DNA of 64,000 nt from Prochlorococcus marinus str. MIT 1214. GTDB taxonomy: Bacteria; Cyanobacteriota; Cyanobacteriia; PCC-6307; Cyanobiaceae. The DNA lies in NCBI RefSeq assembly GCF_027359355.1, contig NZ_CP114777.1, positions 496,001-560,000 on the forward strand, read 5' to 3'. This document shows, piece after piece, positions 1,001 to 54,349 of the stretch; the first letter of the stretch is position 1, and the number at the start of each line of letters is the position of its first letter. A program made the translations under genes and the position numbers. Under the pieces are notes generated by a model that worked only from the letters and a program-made list of their open reading frames with translations, ran no database searches and had not been told where the DNA came from.

Positions 1001-1183
1001 TCAAAAGTGAAAATAGGGTATTTCTCTTGGGGGGGCAGTACGCGTAGAACAGATTCCAAATTGCAAGCACTCCATCACATCATCATCATATTTTGGCTTG
1101 TAATTAGAAAACAAATCAGACATTTCACTTCCTTGAGTAGAAACCCCAGAAAAATTTCGAAATAATTGCTTTGAGAATGGCAT
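1001..1183 (-). CDS. ECLQFGIC-family peptide
   Basis: 60 residues from ATG 1183 (a TTG at 1201 is possible). No signal peptide is evident. The C-terminus has MECLQFGICS followed by a short Pro/Arg tail, shared with the proteins at 2509-2676, 3084-3272 and, more loosely, 49156-49323. The two Cys are six residues apart. The upstream DNA carries ATTTCTACTC (GAGTAGAAAT on the coding strand) 36 bp before the start, as in its relatives. Function unknown; a small precursor-like or regulatory peptide is possible. Confidence 0.65.
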   Translation of the reverse strand: MPFSKQLFRNFSGVSTQGSEMSDLFSNYKPKYDDDVMECLQFGICSTRTAPPREIPYFHF

Positions 1184-1209
1184 GATTAGACATCTAAACA
1201 ACCTACTTA

Positions 1210-1240
1210 ATTTCTACTCATATTGGTTTAAGAAATCTAT
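1210..1240 (-). promoter_or_regulatory. Partial ECL-family upstream element
   Basis: On the minus strand ATAGATTT, 13 nt, GAGTAGAAAT, matching in spacing the right half of the element before 49323. The TAAATACTT half is not clear here. It ends 27 bp before the ATG at 1183. Confidence 0.45.
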
Positions 1241-1407
1241 GGGAAGGAACACTCAATTATTTATACAGTCACGTAAAACTAATTCAATACATAGAGACAA
1301 TTATCGAAGAATCAACAAGTCCTTATCTTGAAAGGCATTGTTTTATTAATACGAGGCGACTTTATCTCCACACTTTTCTTTGGCTTTTCTCGATAATAAA
1401 GGTTCCA

Positions 1408-1659
1408 TTATTTAGATTTTTCTCTTTGACTAAAGCCATCCGGAGACTGAAGATAAGAAGTTTGTCCTAAATATGGGTCTTCTCCAAAAAGATCATTCAT
1501 TTGCTTTTCTGTCATTTGTCTAGGAGCTTGAACTGTTTCAGTAGGATCTGACTCGACAAGCGTGGAATCTATTTCAACTGCATTACCAGCCGGAGGACAA
1601 AAAATGAGAAAAAGACCAAGAGAGAAAGAAACAATTCGAATTAGAAAGAAGTCATTCAT
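1408..1659 (-). CDS. Small secreted protein (GExxYLG family)
   Basis: 84-codon frame starting at ATG 1659 with an N-terminal signal peptide (hydrophobic run ending near GNAVE). The mature part has MTEKQMNDLFGEDPYLG, shared in outline with 41053-41268 (MSKEVIRFLQGEDIYQG) and the broken copy at 36633-36872 (MTEEQLNDLLGEEMYLG). Probably exported to the periplasm or outer face; function unknown. Follows 1670-1825 by only 10 bp, so likely one operon. Confidence 0.7.
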   Translation of the reverse strand: MNDFFLIRIVSFSLGLFLIFCPPAGNAVEIDSTLVESDPTETVQAPRQMTEKQMNDLFGEDPYLGQTSYLQSPDGFSQREKSK

Positions 1660-1669
1660 TTTCTTAAAA

Positions 1670-1825
1670 TTACCTATCGAAAGAATCGGAACTAGCGACT
1701 TGCTCAGCCGTCTTATCTTGACTTGCTTTGTCCTTATTAGATAAAGAGCATCCACCGTCACTCAATGCCAAAGCAGGCGCTTTCGTAAACGAAATGGTAA
1801 ATACTAAAGGTAGAATTTTATTCAT
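1670..1825 (-). CDS. Small secreted GGCS-motif protein
   Basis: 51 residues: short signal peptide (MNKILPLVFTISF), then SDGGCS and a Lys/Gln/Asp-rich tail. A paralog at 42249-42398 has the same plan (signal, EGGCSGSKDK, acidic tail). The single conserved Cys after two Gly might anchor or crosslink, but no lipobox is evident. Function unknown. Confidence 0.65.
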   Translation of the reverse strand: MNKILPLVFTISFTKAPALALSDGGCSLSNKDKASQDKTAEQVASSDSFDR

Positions 1826-1883
1826 AAAAAAAATTGGAAGCAACGCAATATTAAAACCTTTTAAGAAAGTTCGTTTAACTGAC

Positions 1884-2348
1884 TTAATTCATATCCATTC
1901 CCATTTCCATCTCATTCATAGAAACCTCACTCTGATCATTATCTAATGTTCCTACACTGATTTCAGGCAAATTTTCTTCGCTTACTTCAGGCAAGGATGG
2001 TTCAATAACTATCCCGAGAGGATTATCACCATTGTCTTCTAGAATTGACGACTCATCTATAAGAGACTTGTCTTCTTCATTAGTCAGCAATTCTGATTCT
2101 GTTAAAAGATTTTTATCTTCACTAGCTATTCTTTCACTTTTACCTTTTATTAATAATTTGGAAAGATCAACAACGTCTATGATTACTGACTTCTGACTCT
2201 TATACATATCTTGTATAACATTAATTATGTCACCAGATTTTGTGGGTTGGGAAATAAAAGCAAAACAAGACCAGCCAGCCAGAATAATTGAGATTAAGAC
2301 AATAGAAATAAAAGCAGAATACATTGCTCTTATTATTGTTTTGATCAT
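1884..2348 (-). CDS. Membrane-anchored acidic protein
   Basis: 154 residues from ATG 2348. One N-terminal membrane helix (about residues 10-32), then a long low-complexity acidic tail rich in Glu, Asp, Ser and Leu. No enzymatic motif. Could be a single-pass protein with a disordered extracytoplasmic domain. Only 58 bp separate it from 1670-1825, so it may lead the operon 2348 to 1408. Confidence 0.6.
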   Translation of the reverse strand: MIKTIIRAMYSAFISIVLISIILAGWSCFAFISQPTKSGDIINVIQDMYKSQKSVIIDVVDLSKLLIKGKSERIASEDKNLLTESELLTNEEDKSLIDESSILEDNGDNPLGIVIEPSLPEVSEENLPEISVGTLDNDQSEVSMNEMEMGMDMN

Positions 2349-2427
2349 TCGATAACTTTAGATATTGTTAAATCTAGGCACATCATTTGATACTTAAAAC
2401 GGTTTCTTCACACCCTGTAAAGGCGTA

Positions 2428-2481
2428 TAAATACTTTGCGGTTTACTCTCTAGGTTTTTGTTACACGACTAGAGTAGTAAT
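2428..2481 (+). promoter_or_regulatory. ECL-family upstream element
   Basis: TAAATACTT at 2428, exactly 35 nt, then GAGTAGTAAT at 2472, with CTAGGTTT between. The same spacing precedes 3084-3272, and 34 nt precedes 49156-49323. Fits a promoter or transcription-factor site; the ATG follows 37 bp after GAGTAG begins. Confidence 0.55.
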
Positions 2482-2508
2482 GTTAGAAGAAATTTAGGGA
2501 GCTTAATT

Positions 2509-2676
2509 ATGTCTTTAAATCCATTTAAATATTTAATACACAATATCCAAGCATTATTCCTCAGTGATTTTCAAACTGTAAAACAAAGAAAAAATGAGGA
2601 ACAGGAATGCTTACAGTTTGGTATTTGTGGTGTACAAGCCAAATCACCTAGACCAGAAGAGTTGTATTTTGGATGA
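2509..2676 (+). CDS. ECLQFGIC-family peptide
   Basis: 55 residues. N-terminus MSLNPFKYLIHNIQ is amphipathic and shares NPFK with several other mini-proteins here (36310-36435, 46841-46915, 62371-62436); C-terminus has QECLQFGICG plus a Pro/Glu tail. Exactly the same length as the relative at 49156-49323. Preceded by the conserved upstream element and a ribosome-binding sequence (AGGGAG). Function unknown. Confidence 0.7.
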   Translation: MSLNPFKYLIHNIQALFLSDFQTVKQRKNEEQECLQFGICGVQAKSPRPEELYFG

Positions 2677-2690
2677 TAATATATTCAGCA

Positions 2691-2831
2691 CTATGCTACT
2701 TCAGGAATATTTTCAATAAATTCATCTAATTCTTGAAATCTTCGTTCTAAATTAATGATCTTTTTGGTTTCCGTCATTTCTTCAGAGTAAAATTTTATTG
2801 GCAAATGAGAAAGCAGGTTATCACCACTCAT
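2691..2831 (-). CDS. MSGDN-family small protein
   Basis: 46 residues. MSGDN at the start and KFYSEEMTETK in the middle are shared with the 57-residue protein at 32552-32725, so these are paralogs. Helical, acidic, no membrane segment. Convergent with 2509-2676 (14 bp apart). Function unknown. Confidence 0.6.
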   Translation of the reverse strand: MSGDNLLSHLPIKFYSEEMTETKKIINLERRFQELDEFIENIPEVA

Positions 2832-3006
2832 CAATCAAGTTCCACTTAATTTTCAATCTATTAAACCTAATAATCTAAAAAAGCCAATCTCTATAACCAT
2901 TAAAATGTTGTATGCCTCACTTAAAATCTTCACGGAATTCACAGAAAAATAAATTTATTAAAATAAAAAAGATCTTGAGTATTTAGTATTGAGCATTGAA
3001 ACAGCA

Positions 3007-3060
3007 TAAATACTTAGGCGTTTATTCTCTAGGTGTCATTAACCCCATAGGAGTAGAAAT
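3007..3060 (+). promoter_or_regulatory. ECL-family upstream element
   Basis: TAAATACTT at 3007, 35 nt, GAGTAGAAAT at 3051, with CTAGGTGT between. Same layout as at 2428-2481. The ATG at 3084 sits 33 bp after GAGTAG begins, close to the 36-38 bp seen for the other members, which favours that start. Confidence 0.55.
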
Positions 3061-3083
3061 AAATTGTGGATCTTAGACCTCCT

Positions 3084-3272
3084 ATGTCCTACGGAAATCG
3101 CTTTGCTCAATTGACTACAGAGGCTGCAGAAAATGCCGCTCGACTAGTTCTTAGTCAACTATCTGAAAGACTCAGTTTTTCAAAGCATACATCAAACAAC
3201 GATGAAGAAATGGAGTGCTTGCAATTTGGCATATGTTCTTACCAATCTCAACCACAAAGAGTAAATTTCTAG
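3084..3272 (+). CDS. ECLQFGIC-family peptide
   Basis: 62 residues from ATG 3084; a GTG at 3066 would add six but leaves too short a gap to the upstream element. Amphipathic helical N-terminal half, then EEMECLQFGICS and a Gln/Pro/Arg tail. It is followed 10 bp later by a 25-residue membrane peptide gene, an arrangement repeated at 49323-49074. Function unknown. Confidence 0.7.
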   Translation: MSYGNRFAQLTTEAAENAARLVLSQLSERLSFSKHTSNNDEEMECLQFGICSYQSQPQRVNF

Positions 3273-3282
3273 AGTGTCTCAA

Positions 3283-3360
3283 ATGAAATACATTGAACTG
3301 ATTCTAATATTTTCGTCATTATCATTGACGTTTTTAGGTTTCTCTTTTCTCGCTATTTAA
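3283..3360 (+). CDS. 25-residue membrane peptide
   Basis: ATG 3283 to TAA 3360. Almost the whole peptide is one hydrophobic helix (LILIFSSLSLTFLGFSF). Near-identical plan to 49074-49145 (MLLIFSSLSLIFLGFSF), which also lies just downstream of an ECL-family gene, and to 3875-3955. The conserved pairing argues that it is real despite its size. Confidence 0.6.
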   Translation: MKYIELILIFSSLSLTFLGFSFLAI

Positions 3361-3874: not shown

Positions 3875-3955
3875 CTAATAAAAAACAAGTAAAGATATTC
3901 CTAAAAATGAAAATGACAATGTGAAAAATATCAAAAGTAATTCAGTAGTTTTCAT
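3875..3955 (-). CDS. 26-residue membrane peptide
   Basis: MKTTELLLIFFTLSF start and a single hydrophobic helix; paralog of 3283-3360 and 49074-49145. Here no ECL-family gene is found upstream, so this copy may be orphaned. Confidence 0.5.
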   Translation of the reverse strand: MKTTELLLIFFTLSFSFLGISLLVFY

Positions 3956-4284
3956 AACCACTCAGAATCTACTAAAAAATTTGAGTATTGTTTTTTAATT
4001 GAAATAAATATCTTCTTCTATAACTTCTTCAAAAGAAACTCCTAAAATAGGACATTTTCACTTAATCATTTCTATAACCATCTAGCATTAGAAACGAAAG
4101 CGTGAGTAAGTATTATTCGGTTTACATGGTTCGGTTTAATTTGCTCATTGCTCTATAACCTTCGTCTTAAGATCAGACAAAGAGATAGCTTTGATGTAAC
4201 TAATTTGCTTATATGCACATCATGGACACCGAATAACATTTTTATTTTTAAAAGTATCTTGTAATAATTCTTTCTTATTACTTG
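3956..4284. other. Gap without recognised gene
   Basis: AT-rich spacer. Short frames broken by stops; nothing supportable. ACCGAACC near 4113-4120 (minus strand) matches only the end of the recurrent motif described elsewhere. Confidence 0.5.
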
Positions 4285-4584
4285 ATGCAAACCTATTTAA
4301 TTCATTGCAAGTTTCCTAATCAAGAGGCACACATGAAGGGAGCTGAGGTTTTTGCTCAATATATTGAAAGTGGTTGCGAATCAGACAAGTTTGATGGTTT
4401 CGAGGTCATCAATAGAGTCGTCAATCCTGAAAGGGCAAATGGATGAGCAATTGTAAAAACTTCTGATCACAAAGCAGTTTGGGAATAGTGCCAGCATTGG
4501 TGCAAAGGGTTGGGAAATAATGTTGAGATCATTCCTCTTCTTACCGATGGTGAATATCTTGCTGTTCATAAAGAGTTGGATTAG
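4285..4584 (+). pseudogene. Decayed copy of the DUF3303-like gene at 41768
   Basis: Starts with ATG at 4285 and aligns along its full length with the intact protein at 41768-42070. Two in-frame stops break it: TGA at 4444-4446 and TAG at 4486-4488. The first replaces the Trp codon of the intact gene by a single base (TGG to TGA). Reading frame is otherwise kept for 100 codons, so the loss is recent. Confidence 0.85.
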
Positions 4585-4705
4585 CAATCAAAGCTTGAAA
4601 TCAGAGGGGTTGTTTAAACAAACCCTCCAAATAATTTGTACTCGAAAAATAAAATTTTTTTGAAAGGTGTTTCTCGTAGAAGAAATTTTTGATAGATACT
4701 AAGTC

Positions 4706-34934: not shown

Positions 34935-35099
34935 TTAGTCGTCATAAACTTTGCATGTTGAAGAAGTTGGGTGGATTTCACATTCTTCTTTCCAATACTC
35001 CTCTCTTGTTTTAACAGGGATTTCGTAATTGAAATCATGCATTACTCGAATATCACTCAACGCGTTTTTGATGAATGAAAATGGGGTTCTGATCTTCAT
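34935..35099 (-). CDS. Small soluble protein, ECEIHPTSSTC motif
   Basis: 54 residues: MKIRTPFSFIKNALSDIRVM, EYWKEECEIHPTSSTCKVYD. Two Cys eight residues apart near the end, as in several small marine-cyanobacterial proteins I recall. Strong RBS (CAGGAGGTTT). Its upstream DNA has CAAGTAGAACAT, loosely like the ECL-family GAGTAGAAAT. Likely one unit with 34737-34919. Confidence 0.7.
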   Translation of the reverse strand: MKIRTPFSFIKNALSDIRVMHDFNYEIPVKTREEYWKEECEIHPTSSTCKVYDD

Positions 35100-41650: not shown

Positions 41651-41767
41651 GCTTAACTGCTAGGAGTTGATCTGCAAGAAAAATAGTTTACTTTTCAGCA
41701 TCTTCTTTTTTAAAGAACATCCTTTTTTCATAAACTGTGGTCTAATAAATTTTTATAAATTTAATTG

Positions 41768-42070
41768 ATGCAAACTTACGTAGTTCATTGGCAGTTCCCT
41801 AATCAAGAAGCACACATAAAAGGCTGTGATGCATTTGCTGAATATCTTGAAGGCGGTGCTGAGTATGACAAATTTGAAGGTTTTGAAGTCGTTTTAAGAG
41901 TTGTAAATCCTGAGGGTGCTAACGGATGGGAAATCGTTAAAGCCTCAGACCACAAAGCTGTTTGGAAATCTTGTCATCCTTGGTGTGCTGGATTTGGAGT
42001 TGATATTGAAGTGGTTCCAGTACTCACAGATAGTGAGTTTCTAGAAGTTCACAACGAAATCAAGTCGTAA
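41768..42070 (+). CDS. DUF3303-like protein
   Basis: 100 residues from ATG 41768. MQTYVVHWQFPNQEAHIKGC, GFEVVLRVVNPEGANGWEIV, KASDHKAVWKSCHPWCAGFG, VVPVLTDSEF. Alpha-beta barrel-like, with WKSC-x2-WC. The pseudogene at 4285 is its copy. Role unknown. Confidence 0.75.
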   Translation: MQTYVVHWQFPNQEAHIKGCDAFAEYLEGGAEYDKFEGFEVVLRVVNPEGANGWEIVKASDHKAVWKSCHPWCAGFGVDIEVVPVLTDSEFLEVHNEIKS

Positions 42071-48856: not shown

Positions 48857-48956
48857 AAACTTTGCTTGTTCTCTGGTTGATGTTCACCTATAAATCAATT
48901 GAGGCCAAACCTCATCAAGACATAATTGACTTTATATAGTACGAGTCAATTAATAA

Positions 48957-48996
48957 CCCCTTTAGTTATTGGAATTTCTAGAGGGGTTTCTTGTTT
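48957..48996 (+). terminator. Terminator-like hairpin
   Basis: CCCCTTTAG and CTAGAGGGG (9 bp, one wobble), then TTTCTTGTTTT. No plus-strand gene is recognised upstream within 1 kb, so its purpose is unclear. Confidence 0.6.
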
Positions 48997-49073: not shown

Positions 49074-49145
49074 CTATAAGAATGAAAAGCCTAAGAAAAT
49101 CAAAGACAATGATGAGAAAATCAAAAGCATTTCAGTAAATTTCAT
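49074..49145 (-). CDS. 23-residue membrane peptide
   Basis: MKFTEMLLIFSSLSLIFLGF then SFL. AGGAGGTTTT precedes the ATG. Follows the ECL-family gene by 10 bp, exactly the spacing seen at 3272/3283. Paralog of 3283-3360 and 3875-3955. Confidence 0.65.
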   Translation of the reverse strand: MKFTEMLLIFSSLSLIFLGFSFL

Positions 49146-49155
49146 TTAAAACCTC

Positions 49156-49323
49156 CTAAAGGACTACTCTTCTAGGCTGTGGGAAGGATTCAGGCTTAGA
49201 GCAAAAACCATACGTTAGGCACTCCAACTCTTTATCGTCCCTGATCTTCCACAAATAAGGTGAATCGAACATTTCAACCATAATATTTTTAAGCATATGG
49301 TTGAAGGGGTTTCCGCAGGTCAT
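49156..49323 (-). CDS. ECL-family peptide, divergent member
   Basis: 55 residues: MTCGNPFNHMLKNIMVEMFD, then KELECLTYGFCSKPESFPQP and RRVVL. NPF near the start and ECLxxGxC near the end, both as in 2509-2676. RBS CAGGAGG, full upstream element. Forms a two-gene unit with 49074-49145. Confidence 0.7.
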   Translation of the reverse strand: MTCGNPFNHMLKNIMVEMFDSPYLWKIRDDKELECLTYGFCSKPESFPQPRRVVL

Positions 49324-49351
49324 AACTAAACCTCCTGAAAATCCTTAATAC

Positions 49352-49404
49352 ATTTCTACTCCCGAAGCTAGTAAAAATCTATATGGAGACCACTAAAGTA
49401 TTTA
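49352..49404 (-). promoter_or_regulatory. ECL-family upstream element
   Basis: Minus strand TAAATACTT, 34 nt, GAGTAGAAAT, with ATAGATTT between. 38 bp from GAGTAG to the ATG at 49323. Confidence 0.55.
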
Positions 49405-49539
49405 CTATTGTCGTTGCTGATTGCTATCGAAGTTAAAGGGGGGGGTGGGAGACTCAACACAGCCCTTAAAAAAAGAATGATCTATTAAAGTCACAGTAAG
49501 AAAAAGCATCTTTTATTATCTTGCTTTTACTAGATCAGA

Positions 49540-53138: not shown

Positions 53139-53795
53139 ATGGCTGAAAAGCAGACAGCGACAAAAAAGGTTCTTGAATTGATTGGAGATTCCTTGAAGAA
53201 GGGGAAAAACTATTCTCTTGAGAAGGAGCAACTCAAAGAACTTTTTGATGATTTTGGGGATGAAATCCTTGATCCAATGAAGTCAAAGCATGGCGAGAAA
53301 TACATACAAAAACTATCCAAGGAACATGAAAACTTAGAAGCTTTCAGAGATTACATTATTAATAGATTCGTTAGCTTAGTTGCGCAAAAATCATTTAATG
53401 AATACGGGATGTTTGAGGAACCAGAGTATGTCAAACTCATTCTCGCCCTCGCTAAAACCGATGAGGAAGTGCTCATTAAAGAATTTTCTGAAGATATCCT
53501 GACTACATACGATCTGGAAACACAGCGTGAGATCGTAGAGCATGGCTGCATGAATGGCAGAGCTTATAATCATGCTTCCCTTGAAGAAATTATTCCTCTC
53601 TACGATAAATATGAAGAAGACATGGTGAAGTATATCGATAAAAAATGTGGGGAGAAGGCTCTTACCTCGATGTTTGAGCAAAACAAATATTATCTTAACC
53701 AATATAAAATTGATGTAGTTTGGTCATCTATAGAGCTCATAGCAAAGGCAAACCTAGAAAAATTAGACGAGGAAGACGAGGAGGAGGAAGACTAA
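53139..53795 (+). CDS. Helical acidic protein, first tandem copy
   Basis: 218 residues, ATG 53139. N-terminal part (to about residue 96) charged helices with LIGDSLKKGKNYSLEKEQLK; C-terminal part with YDKYEEDMVKYIDKKCGEKA and a tail of Asp/Glu. Soluble. The first 96 residues are repeated exactly in the next gene. The C-terminal block resembles small phage-island helical domains, but no name is safe. Confidence 0.7.
   Translation: MAEKQTATKKVLELIGDSLKKGKNYSLEKEQLKELFDDFGDEILDPMKSKHGEKYIQKLSKEHENLEAFRDYIINRFVSLVAQKSFNEYGMFEEPEYVKLILALAKTDEEVLIKEFSEDILTTYDLETQREIVEHGCMNGRAYNHASLEEIIPLYDKYEEDMVKYIDKKCGEKALTSMFEQNKYYLNQYKIDVVWSSIELIAKANLEKLDEEDEEEED
53147..53427 (+). repeat. Perfect tandem repeat, unit 1
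   Basis: About 281 bp identical, as far as I can see base by base, to 53803-54083. Identity begins 8 bp after the first ATG and ends at the codons for FEEPE. Confidence 0.9.
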
Positions 53796-54349
53796 TGACT
53801 CAAAAGCAGACAGCGACAAAAAAGGTTCTTGAATTGATTGGAGATTCCTTGAAGAAGGGGAAAAACTATTCTCTTGAGAAGGAGCAACTCAAAGAACTTT
53901 TTGATGATTTTGGGGATGAAATCCTTGATCCAATGAAGTCAAAGCATGGCGAGAAATACATACAAAAACTATCCAAGGAACATGAAAACTTAGAAGCTTT
54001 CAGAGATTACATTATTAATAGATTCGTTAGCTTAGTTGCGCAAAAATCATTTAATGAATACGGGATGTTTGAGGAACCAGAGGGGATCGAACTCTTTCTC
54101 ACCCTTATCAAAACGGATGAAACTGATAAGAAAATTGAAAGGAACGTGAACGTCTCTATTGAGCATTACACACCAAGCAATTCTTTAACTAAAGAAACTA
54201 GCTCTTTCTTTAGAAGTTGCTCAATGGGCTTAGGAGGTGGTGTAACTCCATTTTTTTTAAGCAAAGCTACTAAGCCCGATTTATTTAAATTCCAGAAACC
54301 TTTTATTCCATTCTTTTTACATAATTCTTGCAAGGTTTTATTAGTTTGA
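53795..54349 (+). CDS. Truncated/rearranged second tandem copy
   Basis: 184 codons. TAATG overlap with the first copy. Residues 4-96 are identical to the first copy, then the frame changes character: EGIELFLTLIKTDE and a short unrelated part. From about 54166 it runs antisense to 54166-54522 and looks non-coding. Probably a partial duplication whose natural C-terminus was lost. Confidence 0.55.
   Translation: MTQKQTATKKVLELIGDSLKKGKNYSLEKEQLKELFDDFGDEILDPMKSKHGEKYIQKLSKEHENLEAFRDYIINRFVSLVAQKSFNEYGMFEEPEGIELFLTLIKTDETDKKIERNVNVSIEHYTPSNSLTKETSSFFRSCSMGLGGGVTPFFLSKATKPDLFKFQKPFIPFFLHNSCKVLLV
53803..54083 (+). repeat. Perfect tandem repeat, unit 2
   Basis: Second copy of 53147-53427. The absence of any synonymous difference indicates a very recent event or gene conversion. 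Confidence 0.9.

Follow-up and report, generated by a model that had tools for sequence, protein, structure and literature searches.

A lineage-specific family of Prochlorococcus microproteins with a two-cysteine tail and a shared promoter-like element

The 64-kb stretch of Prochlorococcus marinus str. MIT 1214 analyzed here (the window; contig NZ_CP114777.1, positions 496,001 to 560,000) belongs to a genome of 1.93 Mb (G000) and carries four small open reading frames (ORFs) that share a C-terminal cysteine-pair module and a promoter-like element upstream. All four had been listed in an initial annotation, which was silent on strand; two lie on the plus and two on the minus strand. The group A member (1001..1183, minus strand) encodes 60 amino acids (aa), MPFSKQLFRNF...DDDVMECLQFGICS...EIPYFHF, and the group B member (2509..2676, plus) encodes 55 aa, MSLNPFKYLIHN...EEQECLQFGICG...RPEELYFG. 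The group C member (3084..3272, plus; 62 aa) reads MSYGNRFAQLTTEAAENAARL...EEMECLQFGICS, and the group D member (49156..49323, minus; 55 aa) reads MTCGNPFNHMLKNIM...ELECLTYGFCS. A degenerate DNA pattern for the shared core, ECL(Q/T)(F/Y)G(I/F)C, matches the window at four places; shuffled versions gave 0.06 on average, and not one in 100 reached four. The same genome holds a fifth member about 0.84 Mb away, the group G protein (G000:C1:1383537-1383722, minus).

We collected 115 members (107 distinct proteins, 48-70 aa long) and grouped them by N-terminus into A, B, C, D, E, F, FVH, G, HL and a small rest. Their common module, E-C-(L/M)-(Q/T)-(F/Y)-G-x-C, is C-terminal with a tail of 3-19 residues behind it, and the only residues kept across the family are the Cys pair (C-x5-C) and its E, Q/T, F/Y and G neighbors. 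The earlier description of a constant C-terminal part behind variable N-termini needs two refinements: the N-termini do differ between paralogues, yet every orthologue group keeps its own, and conservation often reaches past the core to the far C-terminus, with an aromatic-His-aromatic end (e.g., PYFHF) in 43 of the 107 distinct proteins. The members are mildly acidic (median net charge -2). No hydrophobic segment is found in the 107 distinct proteins, whose largest 17-residue Kyte-Doolittle mean is 1.02.

A profile of the four window members, the search that had been proposed for finding relatives elsewhere, matches in 39 of the 41 genomes of the genus. With a broader profile, matches extend to 48 of 300 genomes of the taxonomic family, in 5 of 59 genera. 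Among 271 near-complete (>= 90%) Cyanobiaceae genomes, 75 have matches at an expectation value (E) <= 0.05; these are confined to 3 of 34 genera, and a few of the 75 hold degraded copies only. When the core peptide pattern was run against one genome per bacterial or archaeal species, 30 loci were confirmed, and every record was named Prochlorococcus. The N-terminus of the group C type (SxEAVxxAAxxVLxQLxERL) recurs in three other genera (L112, L113, L118, L120), which argues that this segment is old and conserved in that paralogue.

Pooled Nei-Gojobori ratios of nonsynonymous to synonymous substitution (dN/dS) are 0.18 for group A (26 distinct coding sequences), 0.37 for B (21), 0.21 for C (21), 0.11 for D (5), 0.13 for G and 0.27 for HL. 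All dN/dS figures here and below pool every pairing of a group's distinct sequences and are not tree-based; one of the further sets examined in this way, the MTRKRDK set, included at least one unrelated row. Purifying selection in all six groups tested (0.11-0.37) indicates that the ORFs are real proteins. The family is a real, lineage-specific set of microproteins with a two-cysteine tail, previously undescribed.

Searches for known relatives gave little. At E <= 0.01, none of 20 members matched Pfam, in which the CP12 domain likewise found no match, and none matched PADLOC. One of the 20 matched NCBIfam at E 0.0062, scoring 15.8 bits against a cut-off of 234 and thus falling below it. PHROGs gave no consistent match: phrog_4027 matched 2 of 20 members (best E 0.0013) and was absent among the E <= 0.1 matches of 10 proteins rescanned singly. 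A sequence search of solved structures (PDB chains) reached a best E of 6.3, with no chain covering the members, and tblastn of phage records with one member (P0003) found no copy. Two scans of viral contigs returned 27 and 40 pattern stretches, with zero confirmed. We found no paper on the family in the open literature, where hits were mostly judged from listings, and a text search with five short pieces of these sequences returned nothing relevant.

The upstream element had been described as two halves, one of them GAGTAGWAAT. The other half, TAAATACTT, is present in three members, whereas the fourth (1001-1183) reads TAAATAATT instead; in the three, the gap between the halves is 34-35 nucleotides (nt), as had been stated. 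GAGTAG precedes the ATG in all four, starting 33, 36, 37 and 38 nt before it. Taken alone with one mismatch, GAGTAGWAAT is uninformative in the window (12 matches vs 12.5 expected), although without mismatch it occurs four times, each time at a member. Most members from the window's genus have an alignable upstream region of about 60 nt.

We searched for the element with two sequence models. The first, R1, was built from 20 rows that include the window elements and is thus circular for the window, where it matched only the four members; in the whole genome it gave six strong matches (E <= 3.3e-5; next 0.097), namely the five members and a site beside the fifth. The second, R2, was trained on groups A, B and C of other genomes only and contains no window sequence. 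Its top five matches genome-wide are exactly the five member promoters, including those of the unseen groups D (E 4.6e-4) and G (1.4e-4), which supports a dedicated promoter-like element for the family. Rank six (E 0.018) is the extra site beside group G, which heads a structured, probably non-coding transcript, and rank seven falls to E 0.54. In the window, R2 finds the element of group A at 1209..1266 (minus, E 3.1e-14), of group B at 2425..2482 (plus, 3.5e-11), of group C at 3003..3061 (plus, 3.9e-15) and of group D, which is outside the training set, at 49351..49405 (minus, 4.6e-4). The group A element contains the dyad AATAATTGAGTGTT, a -35-like TAGATT and a -10-like TAGAAA, with these roles putative.

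To compare the upstream regions, we took the 87 of 115 members with an AATAC anchor 60-100 nt upstream (86 distinct regions; the anchor of m002, AATAAT, was placed by hand). The 28 members outside this set comprise nine of HL, four of group E, four of FVH and eleven more, some of which still match R1 (L069, L115, L100, L010, L037). The arms of the dyad, AATACTTGAGTGTT and its variants, are complementary at 5 of 6 pairs in 38 of the 86 regions and at 4 of 6 in 24. In the 73 regions with both motifs, the distance from dyad start to AGTAG is 44-46 nt in 66, 41-43 in 3 and 33 in 4, the last being about one helical turn shorter. As a marker of a wider regulon, the dyad alone failed: one-mismatch matches were not enriched over a backwards control (14 vs 9 in G000, 9 vs 11 in G002).

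The element looks like a DNA promoter element that would consist of an activator site, the -35-like TAGATT and the -10-like TAGAAA. We favor DNA because the groups were not found to share any RNA structure. TAAATAC may be the -10 instead of TAGAAA, and a scan with the sigma-70 consensus gave 11 sites vs 14.7 expected.

Several members are followed by very small membrane proteins. A 25-aa single-span membrane peptide, MKYIELILIFSSLSLTFLGFSFLAI, starts 10 nt past the group C stop (3283..3360, plus; dN/dS 0.09, 23 distinct coding sequences), and a 23-aa membrane peptide, MKFTEMLLIFSSLSLIFLGFSFL, starts 10 nt past the group D stop (49074..49145, minus). Just past the latter, on the opposite strand, lies the small RNA (sRNA) Yfr13 (48901-48974, plus; RF02364, 66.9 bits). 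A stand-alone paralogue of 26 aa, MKTTELLLIFFTLSFSFLGISLLVFY, has no adjoining member on its strand (3875..3955, minus; dN/dS 0.02, 13 distinct coding sequences). A micropeptide profile matches in 31 of the 41 genomes of the genus, and nine genomes of other genera gave two weak matches (E 0.016, 0.027) and none that was clear; Pfam had no match for the membrane peptides. Many annotation programs do not accept proteins as short as 23-26 aa, and existing annotations may therefore lack these peptides.

Among the 113 members with at least 120 nt of downstream sequence, 37 have a membrane peptide directly downstream (21 of 27 in group C, 5 of 5 in D, 2 of 2 in F and 9 of 11 in G). In group G, the protein that follows the member is a different small hydrophobic one (dN/dS 0.11, 10 sequences). 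All 4 FVH members are followed, 13 nt behind, by a rubredoxin reading frame, which is cut short in one of them (PF00301, E 1.6e-21, one frame scanned). At four HL loci, the member comes after a 53-54-aa protein that has a hydrophobic segment at its N-terminus. From this arrangement, members and neighbors would share transcription units.

Beside the group G member of the window's own genome, two divergent transcripts are predicted, each headed by an element of this type. Their folds are better than those of shuffled sequences (z score -2.9 each; 1 and 4 of 200 shuffles as good), and both finish with terminator-like hairpins. Rfam has no match for them; they are probably transcribed and non-coding. 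The first stem of the minus-strand transcript begins 7 nt past TAGACAT, and we favor this hexamer as the -10 for that reason. Divergent structured transcripts of this kind lie beside group G and FVH members (L036:3320-3600, both strands; L094:3740-3990), and one contains GTGAACAGAG...TTTCGTGCGGTCTCTGCA. The fold of L071:1760-1930, which covers a reading frame, is nothing notable (z 0.3). Behind the plus-strand transcript, a 56-aa ORF, MTRKRDKIWTAMIATKQWF... (L036:3679-3849, plus), is conserved in other genomes.

Our preferred reading, to which we give a probability of roughly 0.4, is that the members are cytosolic Cys-pair (redox or metal) microprotein regulators that would be co-induced with the membrane micropeptides. 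The lack of a hydrophobic segment, the mild acidity, the absence of a confident fold and the sharing of the Cys-pair module alone all suggest a small regulator, and the rubredoxin neighbor suggests electron transfer or iron. A regulator was among the classes that the initial annotation had offered; it is the likeliest class, with the function itself conjectural. In this model, most groups in the window's genus have one dedicated promoter, in which a TAGATT-type -35 is combined with a dyad (AATACTTNAGTGTT type) that begins about 44-46 nt ahead of a TAGAAA-type -10. The dyad is the probable binding site of a dimeric activator, and one stress or redox signal would turn the whole set on. The Cys pair (C-x5-C) would then bind metal or form a disulfide, docking the microprotein on a common partner, while the N-terminus or the membrane micropeptide, perhaps as a binding partner at the membrane, would set place or target. 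A fuller version is more doubtful: a private, lineage-specific regulon in which one dyad promoter would drive the Cys-pair microproteins together with the membrane micropeptides and the structured non-coding RNAs, as a self-contained redox-signaling module.

A number of observations weigh against the Cys-pair regulator and its promoter. Group E lacks a convincing element (10.4 bits for L035, none listed for L034, L041 and L042), FVH members show only half matches of it, and HL genomes match it weakly (best E 0.0075). The downstream membrane peptide is found in 0 of 68 members from groups A, B, E, FVH, HL and the rest. The AlphaFold2 prediction stays at low confidence, with a mean predicted local distance difference test score of 58 and no visible metal site. 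Exactly two cysteines are present in 75 of the 107 proteins, and only two are common to all; the members were gathered via the core pattern, so that the invariance of the core is partly by construction. Some copies are interrupted by stops or lack the core, which suggests that single copies are dispensable; one profile match outside the core pattern, L121 (ECLQFDNG), is a degraded copy. Lastly, RNAalifold finds weak group-specific folds in the upstream region (in kcal/mol, -10.2 for D, -8.3 for G, -4.9 for C and -4.5 for B), which differ from group to group, and the element may have an RNA role in some groups.

The main rival to the Cys-pair regulator is a set of photosynthetic-membrane accessories, in which the ECL protein would act as assembly factor for the micropeptide, itself a minor subunit of some thylakoid complex. 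The 23-26-aa peptides are indeed more constrained (dN/dS 0.02-0.09) than the soluble groups, and the member of G187, a genome that we take to be MED4, has two ORFs resembling high-light-inducible proteins (by eye) no more than about 1 kb away. However, the peptides have no Pfam match, and no family match was obtained in the other Cyanobiaceae genera searched, unlike what holds for core photosystem subunits. We consider this explanation unlikely.

Less likely again, the element could act as RNA, a riboswitch or leader like the "Downstream-peptide" glutamine riboswitch of marine cyanobacteria, with the small ORF as its regulated product. A long conserved stretch ahead of small ORFs in picocyanobacteria fits this idea, as do the weak consensus folds inside single groups and, in single-sequence folds of some members, a CTCT/CCTC block that pairs with the ribosome site. 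However, Rfam has no match at the element, there are 0 consensus pairs over the 86 distinct upstream regions and 0 over 20 diverse rows, and the near-fixed 44-46-nt spacing with its variant of one helical turn suits DNA better. A group C hairpin that pairs AGGAG with CTCCT across the start codon (member at 3084-3272) was dropped as a candidate, being broken in m019, m041 and m092 (by eye).

We also regard as improbable a toxin-antitoxin-like pair, in which the hydrophobic peptide of 23-26 aa would act as a membrane toxin, with the acidic ECL protein as the antitoxin. An acidic small protein followed by a hydrophobic peptide is what groups C, D, F and G present, and there are several paralogues per genome, some of them degraded. 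Nevertheless, the strongly constrained stand-alone paralogue has no adjoining member, groups A, B, E and HL have no such downstream peptide, rubredoxin takes its place in one group, and PADLOC matched none of 20 members. The members themselves may still be toxin-like, as had been suggested earlier, even with none of the 20 matching PADLOC or Pfam. The weakest alternative, ribosomally made modified or secreted peptides, has in its favor short ORFs, a constant Cys-bearing C-terminal core and several paralogues per genome, but we think it very improbable and do not retain either term of the initial annotation, since the members have no hydrophobic stretch, the conserved module is C-terminal with a tail behind it and the variable part N-terminal, opposite to lanthipeptide precursors, and no modification enzyme or exporter was recognized among 10 window ORFs, a small sample.

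Among known systems, the Cys-pair microproteins can be compared with CP12 and other Cys-pair disordered regulators of cyanobacteria. Like these, the members are short, mildly acidic and without a confident fold, and they carry a Cys pair near the C-terminus. Unlike CP12, they have C-x5-C in ECxQFGxC rather than the CP12 tail, no Pfam match, a promoter set of their own and membrane micropeptide or rubredoxin neighbors. The genes of the Downstream-peptide and glnA glutamine riboswitches in marine picocyanobacteria are similar in having a conserved upstream region ahead of short ORFs, whereas the element here has neither an Rfam match, unlike the Downstream-peptide (glutamine-II) riboswitch, nor a fold common to the groups. 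The prochlorosin lanthipeptide precursors are also many short Cys-containing paralogues in Prochlorococcus. In prochlorosins the leader is conserved and the core varies, whereas here the N-terminus differs between groups and the C-terminal part is conserved.

Few photosynthetic organisms are as abundant as Prochlorococcus. According to excerpts of Steglich et al., 2008 (PMC2518516), it has few regulatory proteins, and many short mRNAs and sRNAs, often in genomic islands. The loci described in those excerpts resemble ours in having short mRNAs beside sRNAs, and the same excerpts contain no mention of the family, the motif or the promoter (PMC2518516). What our analysis offers is a concrete candidate regulon, lineage-specific microproteins with a promoter of their own, and a few expression measurements could be enough to identify its trigger.

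The published coordinates of Yfr16 (PMC2518516) fall about 400 nt away from the G187 member, which is on the other strand. We rejected the idea that Yfr11 and Yfr16 carry the same element: the R1 matches are weak (13 bits), and the sequence at the published MED4 coordinates has a different start region. At those coordinates (Yfr16, L141:1393-1530, minus; Yfr11, L140:1607-1755, minus), there is a 13-codon ORF, MIDSPPE(K/N)(F/L)(I/M)RLV, with GGAGGG upstream of it, and it is possible that these RNAs have coding potential.

Elsewhere in the window, a 54-aa protein, MKIRTPF...EECEIHPTSSTCKVYDD (34935-35099, minus), has no Pfam match. Its tail, C-x3-P-x4-C-K-x-Y, is reminiscent of the C-terminal region of CP12. 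The protein has relatives in L071 and L105; the MKxxTPF start is conserved among relatives, and the tail differs in some of them. A DUF3303 protein and, near the A-B-C cluster, a truncated, interrupted copy of it (by eye) make up the pair of loci 4282-4590 and 41765-42070 (both plus). Two adjacent ORFs (53139-53795 and 53720-54349, plus) are identical over about 90 residues (KQTATKKVLELIGDSLKKGKNYSLEKEQ...), which points to a recent tandem duplication.

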